The notes beneath the pieces are model-generated. The model had not been told where the DNA came from and searched no databases. It saw only the letters and a list, made by a program, of their open reading frames with translations. Source: Lachnospiraceae bacterium (GTDB lineage Bacteria > Bacillota > Clostridia > Lachnospirales > Lachnospiraceae). Taken from it: a stretch of DNA of 64,000 nucleotides. How positions within the stretch are numbered: the stretch's first letter is position 1; every line of letters begins with the position of its first letter. Position numbers and translations under genes: made by a program. Shown one piece after another: positions 2,998-12,378 of the stretch. The stretch is from contig JALCKY010000004.1 in NCBI GenBank assembly GCA_022647575.1, positions 124,001 to 188,000 on the forward strand, given 5' to 3'.

Positions 2998-3036
2998 GCG
3001 GCATCCTTCTTTCTTCTGTGTTATAATACCGGCAAA
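2991..3036 (+). promoter_or_regulatory. Extended -10 promoter of the Lgt-like gene, probably leaderless
   Basis: TGTTATAAT, an extended -10, has its hexamer at 3022-3027, only 8 bases before the ATG at 3036. There is no Shine-Dalgarno between them, and no credible -35 at 17 bp. Transcription would begin at or within two bases of the start codon, giving a leaderless or near-leaderless mRNA. Confidence 0.5.
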
Positions 3037-3818
3037 TGTGTCCGACCATTCATTTTTTCAACCTGACTCTCCCGACCTATTCTCTCATCGGGATCTCCGG
3101 CATCCTTCTTGGATGGCTCTTTTCAGTATACCACGGAATCCATCTTAATAAAGACAGGGATGACTGTACCTTTTTGTATATGTACGGCTTTATCGGAGGC
3201 CTTATCGGCGCCAAACTCCTGCCTGTTCTCCTCCGCCTGCCTGCAATCGTGACACACATCGGCCTGCTTTTCAGCGATCCTTCTGACTTTGCCGCACAGT
3301 ATCTGGGCGGCCTCGTCTTCTACGGAGGCCTCATCGGCGGAATGATCGGCGCCCTGATCTACTGCAGGCAGTACCGGCTTTATCTGCCGGATTATTTCAC
3401 GGCGGTCATCCCGGCAATTCCGCTGGTTCACGCCATCGGCCGCCTCGGCTGCTTCTGTGCCGGCTGCTGCTACGGAAAGCCGACCGGTCTGTGGTTCGGC
3501 GTAACCTTTCCCGCGGTCTCGGAAGCACCCGGCGGGATTCCCAGGATTCCGACGCAGCTCATCGAAAGTGCCTGCCTTTTTCTCCTTTTTTTCATTCTCT
3601 GGCGCTATTCTTTTGTCTGCCGCCGGGAAATGAACATGCTGCCGGCCTATCTCATTTCCTACGGAATCCTCCGTTTCCTGATTGAATTTCTTCGCGGTGA
3701 CGACATCCGCGGCTTCTTAGGCCCTCTGTCGACCTCGCAGTGGATCTCGATTGCCGCCGTTCTGACCGGACTCTTCCTGCTGTTCAAAAAAGACCGGCGG
3801 GAACCGGTCTCTATTTGA
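3036..3818 (+). CDS. Prolipoprotein diacylglyceryl transferase family protein
   Basis: A 260-residue polytopic membrane protein with about seven transmembrane segments. Lgt moves diacylglycerol from phosphatidylglycerol to the lipobox cysteine of prolipoproteins. The Lgt signature region is at 131-148 as HAIGRLGCFCAGCCYG, preserving H-x-x-G-R, and an R-F-x-x-E-F-x-R element lies near residue 215. The classical GNFxNxE part of the signature is replaced by a cysteine-rich CFCAGCCYG, a variant seen in Clostridia, so strict Lgt activity is probable rather than certain. The start is set by the N-terminal IHFFNLTLPTYSL, which aligns with other Lgt proteins. It ends in a GACCGG/CCGGTC hairpin lacking a T-tract. 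Confidence 0.8.
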   Translation: MCPTIHFFNLTLPTYSLIGISGILLGWLFSVYHGIHLNKDRDDCTFLYMYGFIGGLIGAKLLPVLLRLPAIVTHIGLLFSDPSDFAAQYLGGLVFYGGLIGGMIGALIYCRQYRLYLPDYFTAVIPAIPLVHAIGRLGCFCAGCCYGKPTGLWFGVTFPAVSEAPGGIPRIPTQLIESACLFLLFFILWRYSFVCRREMNMLPAYLISYGILRFLIEFLRGDDIRGFLGPLSTSQWISIAAVLTGLFLLFKKDRREPVSI

Positions 3819-4061: not shown

Positions 4062-4097
4062 TTTGTTGCAGTTTTGTTGTTGGTTACGGTTTATGCT
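4062..4097 (+). promoter_or_regulatory. Direct-repeat promoter, copy 1
   Basis: TTTGTTG at 4062-4068 and again at 4073-4079, exactly 11 bp apart, followed 12 bp later by the -10-like TATGCT at 4092-4097. There is no -35 hexamer. The same arrangement precedes 5373, 28899 and, on the other strand, 5096 and 6001. It drives the double-glycine peptide gene at 4165. Confidence 0.6.
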
Positions 4098-4164: not shown

Positions 4165-4359
4165 ATGGCGAATAAGGAGTTTGACAAAAAAATCAGTAAA
4201 GAACTAAATAGGGAAAAGGATCAAAACGGACTCGATGATTCTGAACTTGAAGGAGTAGCCGGCGGAGCAGGCGCATCTTCATATTGTTACCAAAGCGGCA
4301 AAGGGCCCACACAAGATACTGTGCCGGTAGACAATTCCGGAAATTTCTTGGTTCCGTAA
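4165..4359 (+). CDS. Double-glycine leader peptide precursor
   Basis: A 64-residue peptide whose first 34 residues end in LDDSELEGVAGG, the classic leader of bacteriocins and pheromones cleaved after GG by C39 peptidase-ABC exporters. Removal would leave a 30-residue core beginning AGASSYCYQSGKGP, with one cysteine. An AAAGGAGG ribosome binding site precedes the ATG. The core matches nothing I recognise; bacteriocin or signalling peptide are both possible. The 3' end runs into the antisense read-through of a transposase remnant. The shared direct-repeat promoter links it to the neighbouring leader-peptide genes. Confidence 0.7.
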   Translation: MANKEFDKKISKELNREKDQNGLDDSELEGVAGGAGASSYCYQSGKGPTQDTVPVDNSGNFLVP

Positions 4360-4853
4360 CTGTTTTGACTTCCGTATATAAACAGCTTAAATATTATTTT
4401 GAAAAAAAGGCGGGCCTGAAAAAGGTCCGCCTTCGGCTTATTTTTGCTACCCAGCGGTCTGCCACGTTTACGCTTTACCGGCTGTTCCGTCTGATCAGAT
4501 GGTGCCTCAGCCTTCGGACGATTCTTGCTTCCTCTGGGCCTGCCAGGTTTCTTTTTCGGCGGTTCTTCCGGCTTCGGAATGAGATCCAGCTTTTGAAGGA
4601 TTTCCAGGTGAGATGGGTTCATCCGTACAAGCTGCCAGTTTTCACTTCCGACACATGCTTTCTTCGCCCGGATTAGTACGGAGAGGATCTTTCTGTAGGT
4701 GTAATCCTCAAGAAGGCCTGCTTTGTCAAAAGCATCGATTAGGCGAAAAGTCAGGAGCGTTGAAAGGAAATCGCAAAACTCACTGCCGATCACAGAGTAA
4801 TCGTCCTGCACGCGGGTCTCATCGAATTCACAGGCTTGCAGCGATGATTCTGA
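4287..4853 (-). pseudogene. C-terminal remnant of an IS1634/IS4-type transposase
   Basis: The open frame starts directly after the stop codon of the cold-shock-like gene (same frame) and has no start or ribosome binding site. It reads DDYSVIGSEFCDFLSTLL... then two AT-hook-like blocks, KKKPGRPRGSKN and KRKRGRPLGSKN, as in the C-termini of IS1634-group transposases of Clostridia. The catalytic N-terminal two-thirds is missing. After GSKNKPK the frame runs on through a terminator and into the antisense of the 4165 gene, so the natural stop is also lost. The 5' junction lies in a sequence (CGATGATTCTGATTA) that is also present at 5742-5760. Confidence 0.7.
4402..4431 (-). terminator. Intrinsic terminator
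   Basis: On the minus strand GGCGGACC, a 7-base loop, then GGCCCGCC and seven T. Probably the original terminator of the transposase. Read on the plus strand the hairpin is followed by TTCGGCTTATTTTT, so it may also end the 4165 transcript. Confidence 0.7.
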
Positions 4854-5096
4854 TTAGATGATTCTTACGTTGGTTGCTATTCGACCCTGGTCGGTTTCAG
4901 TCACGTCATAGGCTACCCGCTGTCCATCTTCAAGGGAAACCCCTGGATTATCGCGGAAAAACACCATAGTTTCTTTCCCACTGCCATCGGCCAGCGAGCC
5001 ATATCCCTTCCTCGCATTGTACCATACCACTTTTCCGGTAATGCCTCCGCTTACGCCTTCGAGGTCTTCATCCGATAATGCTTTCTTGTCTTCCAT
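4854..5096 (-). CDS. Double-glycine leader fused to a cold-shock-like domain, copy 1
   Basis: 80 residues. Positions 1-18 (MEDKKALSDEDLEGVSGG) are a double-glycine leader. From residue 19 the protein reads ITGKVVWYNARKGYGSLAD, matching the start of a CspA-type cold-shock domain (GKVKWFN..KGFGFI), with an RNP1-like KGYGSL and an RNP2-like TMVFF, and it ends DQGRIATNVRII like the last strand of Csp proteins. CSDs normally bind single-stranded nucleic acid in the cytoplasm; with a GG leader this one could be cleaved and exported. The start is the ATG with GGAGG seven bases upstream, not the GTG four codons earlier. Copy 2 lies at 5756. Confidence 0.75.
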   Translation of the reverse strand: MEDKKALSDEDLEGVSGGITGKVVWYNARKGYGSLADGSGKETMVFFRDNPGVSLEDGQRVAYDVTETDQGRIATNVRII

Positions 5097-5208
5097 AATG
5101 TCCTCCACGTATCATTGTATTGTTATATGTTGATGTTTCAGTTTAAAAAAGTCCGCCTTCCTTTTCAAAACGTTTACTCTTAAAATAGATAAGTTTATTG
5201 TATAGATA

Positions 5209-5244
5209 TTATTAGCCCCTAAACTACAACAAATATATAACAGA
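5209..5244 (-). promoter_or_regulatory. Direct-repeat promoter, copy 2 (divergent)
   Basis: On the minus strand TCTGTTA then TTTGTTG at an 11-bp step, with TAATAAT about 30 bp from the start of the first half-site. It drives the cold-shock-like gene ending at 4854. It lies back to back with the plus-strand copy at 5250, separated by five bases, so one regulator could fire both directions. Confidence 0.55.
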
Positions 5245-5249
5245 TAAAA

Positions 5250-5285
5250 TTTGTTACAGTTTTGTTGTTGATCAAGCGCTAAGAT
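5250..5285 (+). promoter_or_regulatory. Direct-repeat promoter, copy 3
   Basis: TTTGTTA at 5250-5256 and TTTGTTG at 5261-5267 (11-bp step), then TAAGAT at 5280-5285, with the same 12-base gap as copies 1 and 5. It drives the leader-peptide gene at 5373. Confidence 0.55.
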
Positions 5286-5372
5286 ATAAAAAATCCATCG
5301 GAAAACAGAGAGGATTATTGATTCCGTAAAACATGTGCCACAATCCCCGAAACCATCAAAAGGAGGTCAATC

Positions 5373-5600
5373 ATGGAAAAAAACCGCAAAGAATTGAATG
5401 ACGATGAACTGGAAGGCGTAAGCGGTGGAATGAGCAGGGAGGAATACAAAACAAAAATGCACTATGTTGTCGATTATGCAGATGATGTAGTCGATTCTGA
5501 TATCATAGTATACAGAAAATTGCATCCTGGTGAAAGCCATACGACAGGGGAAATTCTTGATATACTATATCAGAGAGCCGTAAAAAATCACGATGTTTGA
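5373..5600 (+). CDS. Double-glycine leader peptide precursor
   Basis: 75 residues. MEKNRKELNDDELEGVSGG is a leader almost identical to those of the two cold-shock-like genes. The 56-residue remainder (MSREEYKTKMHYVVDYADDV...) is acidic and predicted partly helical, with no cysteine, and ends in RAVKNHDV. An AAAAGGAGG box sits in front of the ATG. I do not recognise the core. Since the leader is shared but the cargo is not, the leader seems to work as an exchangeable export tag in this island. A terminator-like hairpin follows at 5670. Confidence 0.65.
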   Translation: MEKNRKELNDDELEGVSGGMSREEYKTKMHYVVDYADDVVDSDIIVYRKLHPGESHTTGEILDILYQRAVKNHDV

Positions 5601-5669
5601 TGGATCTGGTGCTTCGTCAAATATGATGTCATGGTTTCCACCACTATGCACTATTCTGGATTTCATAGG

Positions 5670-5717
5670 ACATGGAAGAGCGGCAATAACTGCCACCCTT
5701 CCATGTTTCATTTTTCT
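5670..5717 (+). terminator. Hairpin terminator after the 5373 gene
   Basis: ACATGGAAG (5670-5678) pairs with CTTCCATGT (5698-5706), with an inner GGCA/TGCC, and is followed by TTCATTTTT. The interval 5601-5755 shows nothing else. Confidence 0.55.
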
Positions 5718-5755
5718 ACCTATTTTTTAAAACGTTTTTTCGATGATGATTCTGA

Positions 5756-6001
5756 TTATATGATTTTTACGTTGGCAGCCTTGCAAGGCCCACAATCACT
5801 CATGACTATATCGTAGGATAGCCTTTGTCCGACCTCAAGTTTGCCGCCTGGAACGTCTTTTGCAAACACCATCACAGCACGTTCCTTATTATCGACAAGC
5901 CTGCCTATTCCCGTGGCCGCATCGAAGGTTTGCACGCTTCCGGTAATGCCTCCGCTTACGCCTTCGAGTTCTTCATCCGATAACTCTTTCTTGTCTTCCA
6001 T
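5756..6001 (-). CDS. Double-glycine leader fused to a cold-shock-like domain, copy 2
   Basis: 81 residues, paralogous to the gene at 4854: leader MEDKKELSDEELEGVSGG, then a CSD-like body beginning ITGSVQTFDAATGIGRLVD and ending CGPCKAANVKII. The nucleic-acid binding positions are eroded (RNP1 is TGIGRL, the aromatic W/Y/F residues are mostly lost, and RNP2 is VMVFA), while the strand framework and C-terminal ANVKII are kept. Two cysteines form a CGPC motif absent from copy 1. The ribosome binding site is AAGGAGG. This suggests the fold is retained for something other than RNA binding; a disulfide-stabilised secreted OB-fold is one possibility. Confidence 0.72.
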   Translation of the reverse strand: MEDKKELSDEELEGVSGGITGSVQTFDAATGIGRLVDNKERAVMVFAKDVPGGKLEVGQRLSYDIVMSDCGPCKAANVKII

Positions 6002-6048: not shown

Positions 6049-6084
6049 TTATTAACGCTCAAACCGCAACAAAAGTATAACAAA
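6049..6084 (-). promoter_or_regulatory. Direct-repeat promoter, copy 4
   Basis: On the minus strand TTTGTTA then TTTGTTG at an 11-bp step, then TAATAAT about 30 bp from the start of the first half-site. The downstream TAATAATATC is shared with copy 2. It serves the cold-shock-like gene ending at 5756. Confidence 0.55.
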
Positions 6085-6422: not shown

Positions 6423-6656
6423 TCAACGGAGCGGTACAAGTTTTGGTGCAATCTGACAGCCACCAGCTACTTTGTTCAAGTCGTCTTCGGAAAGCTTCCT
6501 GAACATGTCAAATACACGGCTGGCATCTTCATCTGTCAGTTCGAGGTCATGCTCTTTTGCAAGGGCACGTATTTCATCAGTACTTGCACATTCTTTGAAT
6601 TTCCCGGTTAGTTCCGTGTCAGACAACAGTTCTTTCAACTTTTCTTCATTATCCAT
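6423..6656 (-). CDS. Nif11-like leader peptide, short cysteine core
   Basis: 77 residues starting MDNEEKLKELLSDTELTGKF, the helical Nif11-type leader, ending LSEDDLNKVAGG and followed by only 11 residues, CQIAPKLVPLR. Nif11-like leaders normally carry ribosomally made peptides modified by lanthionine, radical-SAM or cyclodehydratase enzymes. The very short one-cysteine core is unusual; it may be a pheromone-like peptide or a vestige. The start was chosen at the ATG behind AGGAGG, not at upstream in-frame ATGs. A TGGTATAAT extended -10 lies at 6690-6698. Confidence 0.7.
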   Translation of the reverse strand: MDNEEKLKELLSDTELTGKFKECASTDEIRALAKEHDLELTDEDASRVFDMFRKLSEDDLNKVAGGCQIAPKLVPLR

Positions 6657-6838: not shown

Positions 6839-7069
6839 TCAACACTTCATTCCGGCGCCTCCGCCAGCTACATTCTTTAATTCAGACAGGTCTAATTCGC
6901 CTTCTTCGGAGCTGAATGCTTCAAGTGCCTGTTTGCTTTCATCCTCATTAATATCGAGACCATTCTCCTTTGCAATATCCTTAATTTCTTCAGGATTCGT
7001 GCATGCCTTCAGTCTTTCCACGAGTTCGGAATTCGACAGCAGTTCGCTGATTTTTTCTTTCTTGCTCAT
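6839..7069 (-). CDS. Nif11-like leader peptide, minimal core
   Basis: 76 residues: MSKKEKISELLSNSELVERL then an acidic helical leader ending LDLSELKNVAGG, and a core of just GAGMKC. It is a paralog of the gene at 6423 (same leader architecture, aligned ELLS...EL...C...EEI..LAKE). A six-residue core with one cysteine is too small for a normal lanthipeptide; it could be a processed signal, or a remnant whose core was deleted. The ribosome binding site is GGAGGTG. No modifying enzyme is nearby. Confidence 0.68.
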   Translation of the reverse strand: MSKKEKISELLSNSELVERLKACTNPEEIKDIAKENGLDINEDESKQALEAFSSEEGELDLSELKNVAGGGAGMKC

Positions 7070-7157: not shown

Positions 7158-7159
7158 CG

Positions 7160-7233
7160 TAGCGAGAGGGGGACTTGAACCCTCGACACCGCGGGTATGA
7201 ACCGCGTGCTCTAGCCAGCTGAGCTACCTCGCC
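7160..7233 (-). tRNA. tRNA-Met (anticodon CAU)
   Basis: A 74-nt cloverleaf: acceptor GGCGAGG/TCTCGCT, D-arm TAGCTCAGCTGGCTAGAGC, anticodon stem CGCGG with loop TTCATAC (CAT), T-loop TTCAAGT and discriminator A; CCA is not encoded. An elongator Met tRNA is most likely. Modification to tRNA-Ile2 cannot be excluded from the anticodon alone. A GCGGGCTT/AAGCCCGC hairpin without T-tract sits upstream at 7239-7257. Confidence 0.93.
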
Positions 7234-11878: not shown

Positions 11879-12316
11879 TTATTTCTTCTCTGCTGCCTTT
11901 TTAGCCGGTGCCTTTTTTGCTGCCGGTTTCTTTGCCGGAGCGGCCTTCTTTGCCGGAGCGGCTTTCTTAGCCGGAGCAGCCTTCTTTGCCGGAGCAGCCT
12001 TCTTAGCCGGAGCAGCCTTCTTTGCCGGAGCAGCCTTCGCTGCCGGAGCAGCCTTCTTAGCCGGAGCGGCCTTCTTTGCCGGAGCAGCCTTCTTTGCCGG
12101 AGCAGTCTTCTTTGCCGGAGCAGCTTTCTTTGCCGGAGCAGCTTTCTTTGCTACATCCTTCTTAACTTCAGCAACTTTCTTCTCAGCTGCTTTCTTTGTC
12201 GCTGTTGCTTTCTTTTCTACTTTTTTCTCAACAGCCTTGACGTCTTTCTTGACTGCTTTCTTTGCAGCTTTTACATCTTTTTCGATCTTCGCTGCAAGAC
12301 TTTTTTTTGCTGCCAT
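11879..12316 (-). CDS. Histone H1-like lysine/alanine/proline-rich protein
   Basis: 145 residues. Residues 1-55 are a charged helical region (MAAKKSLAAKIEKDVKAAKK...), followed by about 14 near-perfect AAPAKK hexapeptides and a KKAPAKKAAEKK tail. Such proteins coat DNA through lysines, like eukaryotic H1 tails, Chlamydia Hc1 or the HupB C-terminus, and compact the nucleoid or act in stress. There is no folded DNA-binding domain. The start is set by GGAGGG upstream; five extra upstream codons lack a ribosome binding site. A strong promoter precedes it. The repeat number is likely to vary between strains. Confidence 0.8.
   Translation of the reverse strand: MAAKKSLAAKIEKDVKAAKKAVKKDVKAVEKKVEKKATATKKAAEKKVAEVKKDVAKKAAPAKKAAPAKKTAPAKKAAPAKKAAPAKKAAPAAKAAPAKKAAPAKKAAPAKKAAPAKKAAPAKKAAPAKKPAAKKAPAKKAAEKK
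11905..12160. repeat. Tandem 18-bp coding repeats
   Basis: Repeated units encoding AAPAKK inside the H1-like gene (GCCGGAGCAGCCTTCTTT and variants on the plus strand). Confidence 0.8.
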
Positions 12317-12378
12317 TTTTACCCTCCACATTAAACAAGAAAAGTGTTATTAAAAAAGTATAAAATCTTTACATTCAC

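Follow-up and report, generated by a model that had tools for sequence, protein, structure and literature searches.

Results

An island of double-glycine precursors

The stretch of DNA analysed here, called the window, comprises 64,000 nucleotides from a Lachnospiraceae genome. Between an Lgt-like gene (3036-3818, assigned by eye) and a tRNA-Met gene (7159-7233) it contains an island of six genes whose products begin with a double-glycine (GG) leader (Table 1). Two of these genes are paralogs, and in both a leader of 18 residues (MEDKKALSDEDLEGVSGG and MEDKKELSDEELEGVSGG) is joined directly to a cold-shock domain (CSD) of 62-63 residues. The earlier note had located the pair correctly without giving the strand, which is the minus strand. 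Its claim that leader and CSD-like sequence share one reading frame was borne out as well, with copy 1 lying above the Pfam threshold and copy 2 being a diverged paralog below it. A GGAGG sequence is found a short way 5' of the ATG in both genes.

Table 1. Features of the GG-leader island (positions within the window).
Feature	Position	Strand	Basis
GG-leader gene, cargo without identity, 64 aa	4165..4359	+	ORF, leader; unmatched in Pfam and NCBIfam
Leader-CSD gene, copy 1, 80 aa	4854..5096	-	ORF; CSD above Pfam cut-off; model and fold match
Copy 1 GG leader, residues 1-18	5043..5096	-	Sequence; L-12, D-8, L-7, V-4, G-2, G-1
Copy 1 CSD, residues 19-80; predicted mature protein from ITGKV	4857..5042	-	Profile, model, alignment, PDB search
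GG-leader gene, cargo without identity, 75 aa, leader MEKNRKELNDDELEGVSGG	5373..5600	+	ORF; leader matches sub-threshold only
Leader-CSD gene, copy 2, 81 aa; CGPC-containing diverged CSD	5756..6001	-	ORF, paralogy, model
Copy 2 GG leader, residues 1-18	5948..6001	-	Sequence; leader plus ITG identical to copy 1 in 60/63 nt
Nif11-type precursor, leader end KVAGG	6423..6656	-	Pfam Nif11, 26.1 bits (cut-off 23.8)
Nif11-type precursor, leader end NVAGG	6839..7069	-	Pfam Nif11, 33.1 bits (cut-off 23.8)
Putative promoter box of 4165 gene	4062..4079	+	Pattern search
Putative promoter box of copy 1, one mismatch to pattern	5227..5244	-	Pattern search
Putative promoter box of 5373 gene	5250..5267	+	Pattern search
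Putative promoter box of copy 2	6067..6084	-	Pattern search

The two Nif11-type precursors score just under the TIGR03798 cut-off of 32.3 bits (31.8 bits for the gene at 6423, 32.0 bits for that at 6839). No modifying enzyme was recognised beside the CSD genes. Another genome of the genus (G302) has an Lgt-like gene, 57% identical over residues 1-191, on an 8,216-base contig; it adjoins a counterpart of the window's 1192-2997 gene, which is beta-lactamase-like by eye, and the contig yielded no GG-leader gene. Two further minus-strand reading frames of the window were noticed. One (4287-4811) carries AT-hook-like RGRP repeats and overlaps the 3' end of the 4165-4359 gene on the opposite strand, the other (11879-12331) encodes a lysine/alanine-rich, Histone-H1-like repeat protein (KKAAPAKKAAPA).

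The cargo is a cold-shock domain

Residues 20-78 of copy 1 match the Pfam CSD profile PF00313 with 35.3 bits (cut-off 27); the canonical cold-shock protein (Csp) of the same genome reaches 104.9 bits. Copy 2 stays below this cut-off (16.5 bits, E 0.0079) and was missing from the whole-genome CSD profile search even at E 10, so that it is tied to the family by its paralogy with copy 1 and by a low-confidence model. The AlphaFold model of copy 1, built without templates and from two sequences only (pLDDT 77.7), is a five-stranded barrel with strands from residue 18 onwards and a leader of low confidence. Searched against the PDB, it gave 39 matches at E <=0.001 with cold-shock proteins at the top, the best being CspB (5jx4, E 5.9e-6, TM 0.84 on the target). 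The AlphaFold model of copy 2 has five strands of low confidence (pLDDT only 60.2), and its two matches at E <=0.001 are both CspA structures (1mjc and 2l15, E 7.9e-4). At the sequence level, a PDB search with copy 1 returned 31 matches, namely cold-shock and Y-box proteins plus one entry labelled nucleic acid binding protein, and copy 2 returned weak cold-shock matches only (E >=0.083). Structure prediction and profile comparison, which were among the checks proposed in the earlier note, hence point to a Csp-like cargo, clearly for copy 1 and below threshold with a low-confidence model for copy 2.

The joint between leader and domain is exact. In an alignment with 39 Csps, including the canonical one of this genome, the segment ITGKVVWYN that directly follows the GG motif lies opposite the N-terminal MNKGTVKWFN. 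These reference proteins were taken from the loci of our own-genome, family and genus searches and are mostly best matches rather than a random sample. That the leader is a part of the folded domain was rejected, since its pLDDT is low and its end coincides with the start of ordinary Csps. Judged from the sequence, a cut after GG would free the whole domain (62 or 63 residues).

Erosion of the nucleic-acid-binding face

Twenty-eight columns of the alignment hold one residue in at least 90% of the 39 Csps; copy 1 retains 17 of them and copy 2 retains 12. Common to both copies are G4, V6, G14, G16, V28, L41, G44, G57, A60, N62 and V63, while K7, F17, F27, H29 and the G37/F38 loop are among the positions altered in both. 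Two of the substitutions are shared (F27M and H29F), as is a deletion of three residues, including G37 and F38, in the loop preceding the SLEEGQ stretch.

The nucleic-acid-binding face, which we take to be the RNP1/RNP2 aromatics, is therefore incomplete in both copies: F17, F27 and H29 are replaced and F38 is deleted. Copy 1 retains W8, N10, K13 and Y15, and may still bind single-stranded nucleic acid weakly. In copy 2, W8, Y15, F17, F27 and H29 are all replaced and K13 is lost too. The loss of binding aromatics had previously been attributed to copy 2, where it stands; it extends in part (F17, F27, H29) to copy 1. The CGPC sequence noted before in copy 2 is present as well, in a loop that reads RGMQ or KGPQ in most ordinary Csps. 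To read it as a sign of adaptation to secretion is speculative, because it falls into a loop of the low-confidence model.

Duplication with a conserved leader and a diverged cargo

Both proteins align end to end with 56% identity. A 14-mer, GATGATTCTGATTA, overlaps the stop codons of both genes (plus-strand positions 4843 and 5745), and about 30 bases of similarity return at their 3' ends and reach into the flank. Together with the shared loop deletion, F27M and H29F, this common 3' flank supports the duplication that the earlier note had deduced. Since both copies carry the same deletion and the same two substitutions, they presumably derive from a single ancestral leader-CSD gene that was subsequently duplicated.

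The two parts of the gene differ strongly in divergence. Across the leader and the following ITG, 60 of 63 nucleotides are the same (dS 0.08), whereas the remaining cargo has dS 1.40 and dN 0.61. Counted as rounded synonymous differences per site, the contrast is 1/13 in the leader against 26/41 in the cargo (Fisher p 0.0009). Within the cargo, pN is 0.42 and pS 0.63 (Fisher p 0.02), which is consistent with weak purifying selection, a rough estimate because synonymous sites are near saturation. Selection at the protein level would not preserve synonymous sites. Hence, it is likely that the leader underwent recent exchange or conversion, or that the start of the RNA is constrained. The leader behaves like a cassette placed ahead of a diverging cargo.

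Leader recognition and C39 exporters

Both leaders contain all residues by which C39 peptidases recognise their substrates (L-12, D/E-8, L-7, V-4, G-2 and G-1). One Lachnospiraceae exporter binds V-4, L-7 and L-12 of the leader through its C39 domain (PMC6363468), and a 90-residue substrate is recognised via L-7 and L-12 (PMC6959990). Neither CSD protein was listed with a Nif11 domain ahead of the GG motif (TIGR03798). Of the leader models for class II bacteriocins, TIGR01847 (15.5 bits, cut-off 15.7) and PF10439 (15.4 bits, cut-off 27.1) match copy 2 below their cut-offs, and neither was listed for copy 1 in the Pfam and NCBIfam profile search.

An exporter within the island was ruled out by a whole-genome search with the C39 profile PF03412, as all four matches above cut-off, three covering the full domain and one partial, lie elsewhere. 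Three full-length proteins are of the NHLM type, scoring 902.8, 900.9 and 900.9 bits against the TIGR03796 cut-off of 853.3. A TIGR03797-like partner comes after each of them; one of these partners exceeds the cut-off of its model and two fall short of it. These exporter families were defined in PMC2887384. By eye, Cys, His and Asp of the C39 domains appear intact. The genome thus provides the exporter elsewhere for which the earlier note had suggested a search. Ahead of one NHLM pair (L044:10057-16635) lies a short HlyD-like gene, whose TIGR03794 match is below cut-off and covers just 71 of 421 positions; behind the pair come a radical SAM-like sequence split between two overlapping frames and then a Nif11-like precursor.

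A shared, putative promoter type

Upstream of both CSD genes and of the genes at 4165 and 5373 we found a common element, TTTGTTR-N4-TTTGTTG (with one change in copy 1), made of repeats of seven bases at a period of 11 bases. OmpR/PhoB-type regulators use seven-base repeats with this period. No box was found in the 180 bases upstream of either Nif11-type precursor. Throughout the genome, TTTGTTR-N4-TTTGTTG with <=1 mismatch occurs at 26 sites, and the reversed control at none. Positions outside the searched pattern are conserved as well: offset 20 is G in 25/26 sites, offset 22 is T in 23/26 and offset 31 is A in 25/26. In 17 of the 26 sites TANNNT starts precisely at offset 30, which gives the full pattern TTTGTTR-N4-TTTGTTG-N12-TANNNT; elsewhere between offsets 18 and 45, TANNNT occurs at most twice per position, apart from offset 18 (seven), which is the 3' extension of the box itself. 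In both CSD genes, offset 30 reads TAATAA in place of TANNNT. From its sequence, the element looks like a rigid promoter of a species-specific export regulon.

Inspected by eye, the genes following the 26 sites comprise 11 with a GG leader, six encoding Sec-type secreted proteins or lipoproteins, three for signalling and six others. A GG-leader reading frame with a ribosome-binding sequence follows 10 of the 26 sites, compared with 132 of 20,000 random positions drawn from a pool of eight stretches that includes the window; the eleventh GG-leader site (C2:111752) was dropped by the ribosome-binding criterion. As four of the ten lie in the island, six are independent of it. Without mismatch, the box occurs at nine sites in this genome, once in one other genome of the genus (G321) and in none of the other 40; the reversed control gave one site (G327). 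With the box all but missing from the remaining 41 genomes of the genus, the regulon appears to be confined to this species or close relatives of it. The box is absent (260 bases upstream, <=4 mismatches) from 12 of 13 leader-pattern loci of other genomes, and the single occurrence (L113, three mismatches) was taken as chance.

Among the remaining sites, one (L063:1587 onward; L049:15135-17942) precedes a hybrid histidine kinase with solute-binding-like domains, as judged by eye, which is a possible sensor of the regulon. Another (L108, motif at C1:694899) precedes a long protein whose start is TIR- or SEFIR-like by eye. The promoter type offers a means to list such genes in this species independently of leader similarity.

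Distribution of the fusion and other folded cargo

The earlier note had called for a search of other genomes for the same fusion. In this search the fusion was found in its own genome only, in samples of genus, family, class and phylum that overlap. Among 42 genomes of the genus (36 with a match at E 0.01), an alignment starting at residue 1 was obtained for the window's own two genes only; a match from residue 2 (G335) has an SH3b domain, not a CSD, behind its GG leader. Likewise, among the matches listed for 299 genomes of the family (270 with a match at E 1e-4), only the same two genes start at residue 1. Family matches from residue 3 (G114) and residue 10 (G206) are ordinary Csps, and some of those starting at residues 11-17 were inspected. 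In 391 genomes of the class (limit 1e-11) and 398 of the phylum (limit 1e-12) the own genome alone matched, at limits strict enough that a diverged fusion could be missed.

A GTDB contig scan gave 92 pattern matches with one confirmed, a Butyrivibrio leader with another cargo, and viral contigs gave 65 pattern matches with none confirmed. Three plasmid records match from residue 20 or 21, two of them annotated as cold-shock protein, and two phage records match from residues 12 and 15, the one inspected being an ordinary Csp without leader. Because the fusion is known from one genome, conservation across species is unusable as evidence. The earlier note knew of no description of the combination, and no account of it appears in the titles and abstract openings of the literature searched.

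The leader pattern is wider spread, with 18 sites in 12 of the 42 genus genomes (reversed control: two); two of these loci (L117 and L120) bear no resemblance to such genes. In three genomes of the genus a GG leader precedes an SH3b domain (L113 in G307, L114 in G310 and L092 ~880-1150 in G335), with Pfam SH3_3 scores of 24.6, 34.2 and 29.2 bits, two of them above the cut-off of 27. SH3b domains are normally extracellular. At two further loci (L119 in G326 and L122 in G335) the leader is followed by a zinc-ribbon-like CxxC...CxxC cargo with Pfam matches below cut-off.

Discussion

The leader-CSD fusion is real and unusual, and on sequence evidence it is best read as adding a new class of cargo to the known route of GG-leader/C39 export. 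Thus, both genes probably encode small secreted proteins with a cold-shock (OB) fold as cargo. The leader may be regarded as a working export tag, because it carries the recognition residues, shares its promoter type with GG-leader and secreted genes, and has counterparts in the genus that carry SH3b cargo. We therefore rate the predicted export itself as quite likely; an extracellular role of the domain is far less certain. Several points count against this reading. The island has no exporter of its own, the fusion was found in a single genome, copy 2 is a sub-threshold CSD with a low-confidence model, and the promoter box is not conserved in the genus. C39 exporters are believed to pass their cargo through in an unfolded state, so a fast-folding domain might jam the exporter, and six of the 26 regulon sites precede genes without visible export link.

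In the mechanism that we propose, a regulator acting at the shared promoter type would turn the genes on. One of the three NHLM-type exporters would receive the leader in its C39 peptidase groove, by way of V-4, L-7, D/E-8 and L-12, and would cut after GG while threading out the still-unfolded chain; the barrel of 62-63 residues would fold outside the cell. There the domain would most likely act as a small binding or competition protein and not as an RNA chaperone, because the RNA-binding face is eroded while core residues and glycines are kept.

Csps are normally cytoplasmic proteins, and copy 1 retains W8, N10, K13 and Y15. Both facts would suit a Csp paralog that stays inside the cell with a GG-like N-terminus, either unused or tethering it to a C39 exporter, and that serves as an RNA-binding regulator of peptide export. 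We consider this unlikely, since the leader ends where a Csp starts, contains every recognition residue and is the best-conserved part of the gene. An intracellular RNA-binding role also fits poorly with the loss of F17, F27 and H29 in both copies and of W8 and K13 in copy 2. Alternatively, the products could be unmodified class II-type bacteriocins whose active peptide happens to form an OB barrel. Bacteriocin-type precursors as neighbours, the weak leader-model matches of copy 2 and a nearly fixed leader ahead of diverging cargo would be expected in this case. However, the cargo is a recognisable housekeeping fold, the leader models stay under cut-off for copy 2 and are unlisted for copy 1, and no immunity gene came to notice among the neighbours; we regard this explanation as quite unlikely. 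An accidental recombination that joined a duplicated Csp to a leader without function could account for the occurrence in a single genome within the samples searched and for the strong divergence of copy 2, but is very improbable given that both reading frames are intact, that both genes have a regulon promoter and a ribosome-binding site of their own, and that pN is below pS in the cargo.

Several known systems resemble a secreted leader-CSD protein in part. PCAT1 of Clostridium thermocellum is a C39 exporter that recognises its 90-residue substrate CtA by L-7 and L-12 of the leader (PMC6959990); there, one substrate with a cargo drawn as unstructured was studied with one exporter, whereas here a regulon of scattered precursors is found. 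The Lah cluster of Lachnospiraceae bacterium C6A11 combines related GG leaders with diverse cores and the C39 protein LahT, which acts via V-4, L-7 and L-12 (PMC6363468). Its nine precursors are of the Nif11 type and belong to one lanthipeptide cluster, in contrast to the CSD genes, whose leaders have no Nif11 domain and whose cargo is a folded domain. The NHLP/Nif11 system (Haft 2010, PMC2887384) shares the TIGR03796 exporters with TIGR03797-like partners, and Nif11 precursors are present in the island; the CSD genes themselves have neither a Nif11 nor a nitrile hydratase leader domain, and nothing beside them was recognised as a modifying enzyme. The EbfG1-4 proteins of Synechococcus elongatus are small GG-motif biofilm proteins with a non-antibiotic role that need a C39 peptidase transporter for efficient secretion (PMC4997328), but they come from a cyanobacterium and the abstract names no CSD. 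The microcin V type I system exports many unrelated small proteins within a length limit, with engineered cargo in Gram-negative hosts (PMC10231218).

With respect to the cargo, CspA and CspB are the nearest relatives in fold and sequence. They differ by the absence of a leader, by three additional loop residues including G37 and F38, and by F17, F27 and H29, which are replaced here.

As a more tentative proposal, which we put forward with reservation, a portable leader could have taken over a housekeeping fold for nucleic-acid binding, which thereby became a secreted protein that diversifies fast. This would have taken place within a genome-wide export regulon of about 26 promoters that also covers sensors, surface proteins secreted through Sec and further small proteins with GG leaders, with the leader cassette homogenised between genes and the cargo evolving freely. 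C39 exporters would then be a general route for small folded domains such as CSD, SH3b and perhaps zinc ribbons.

If export is true, C39 exporters are a route that brings ordinary folds into the secretome, including CSDs, which have hitherto been regarded as cytoplasmic. Some short proteins with bacteriocin-like leaders may then count among small, folded proteins that are secreted, instead of among peptides.
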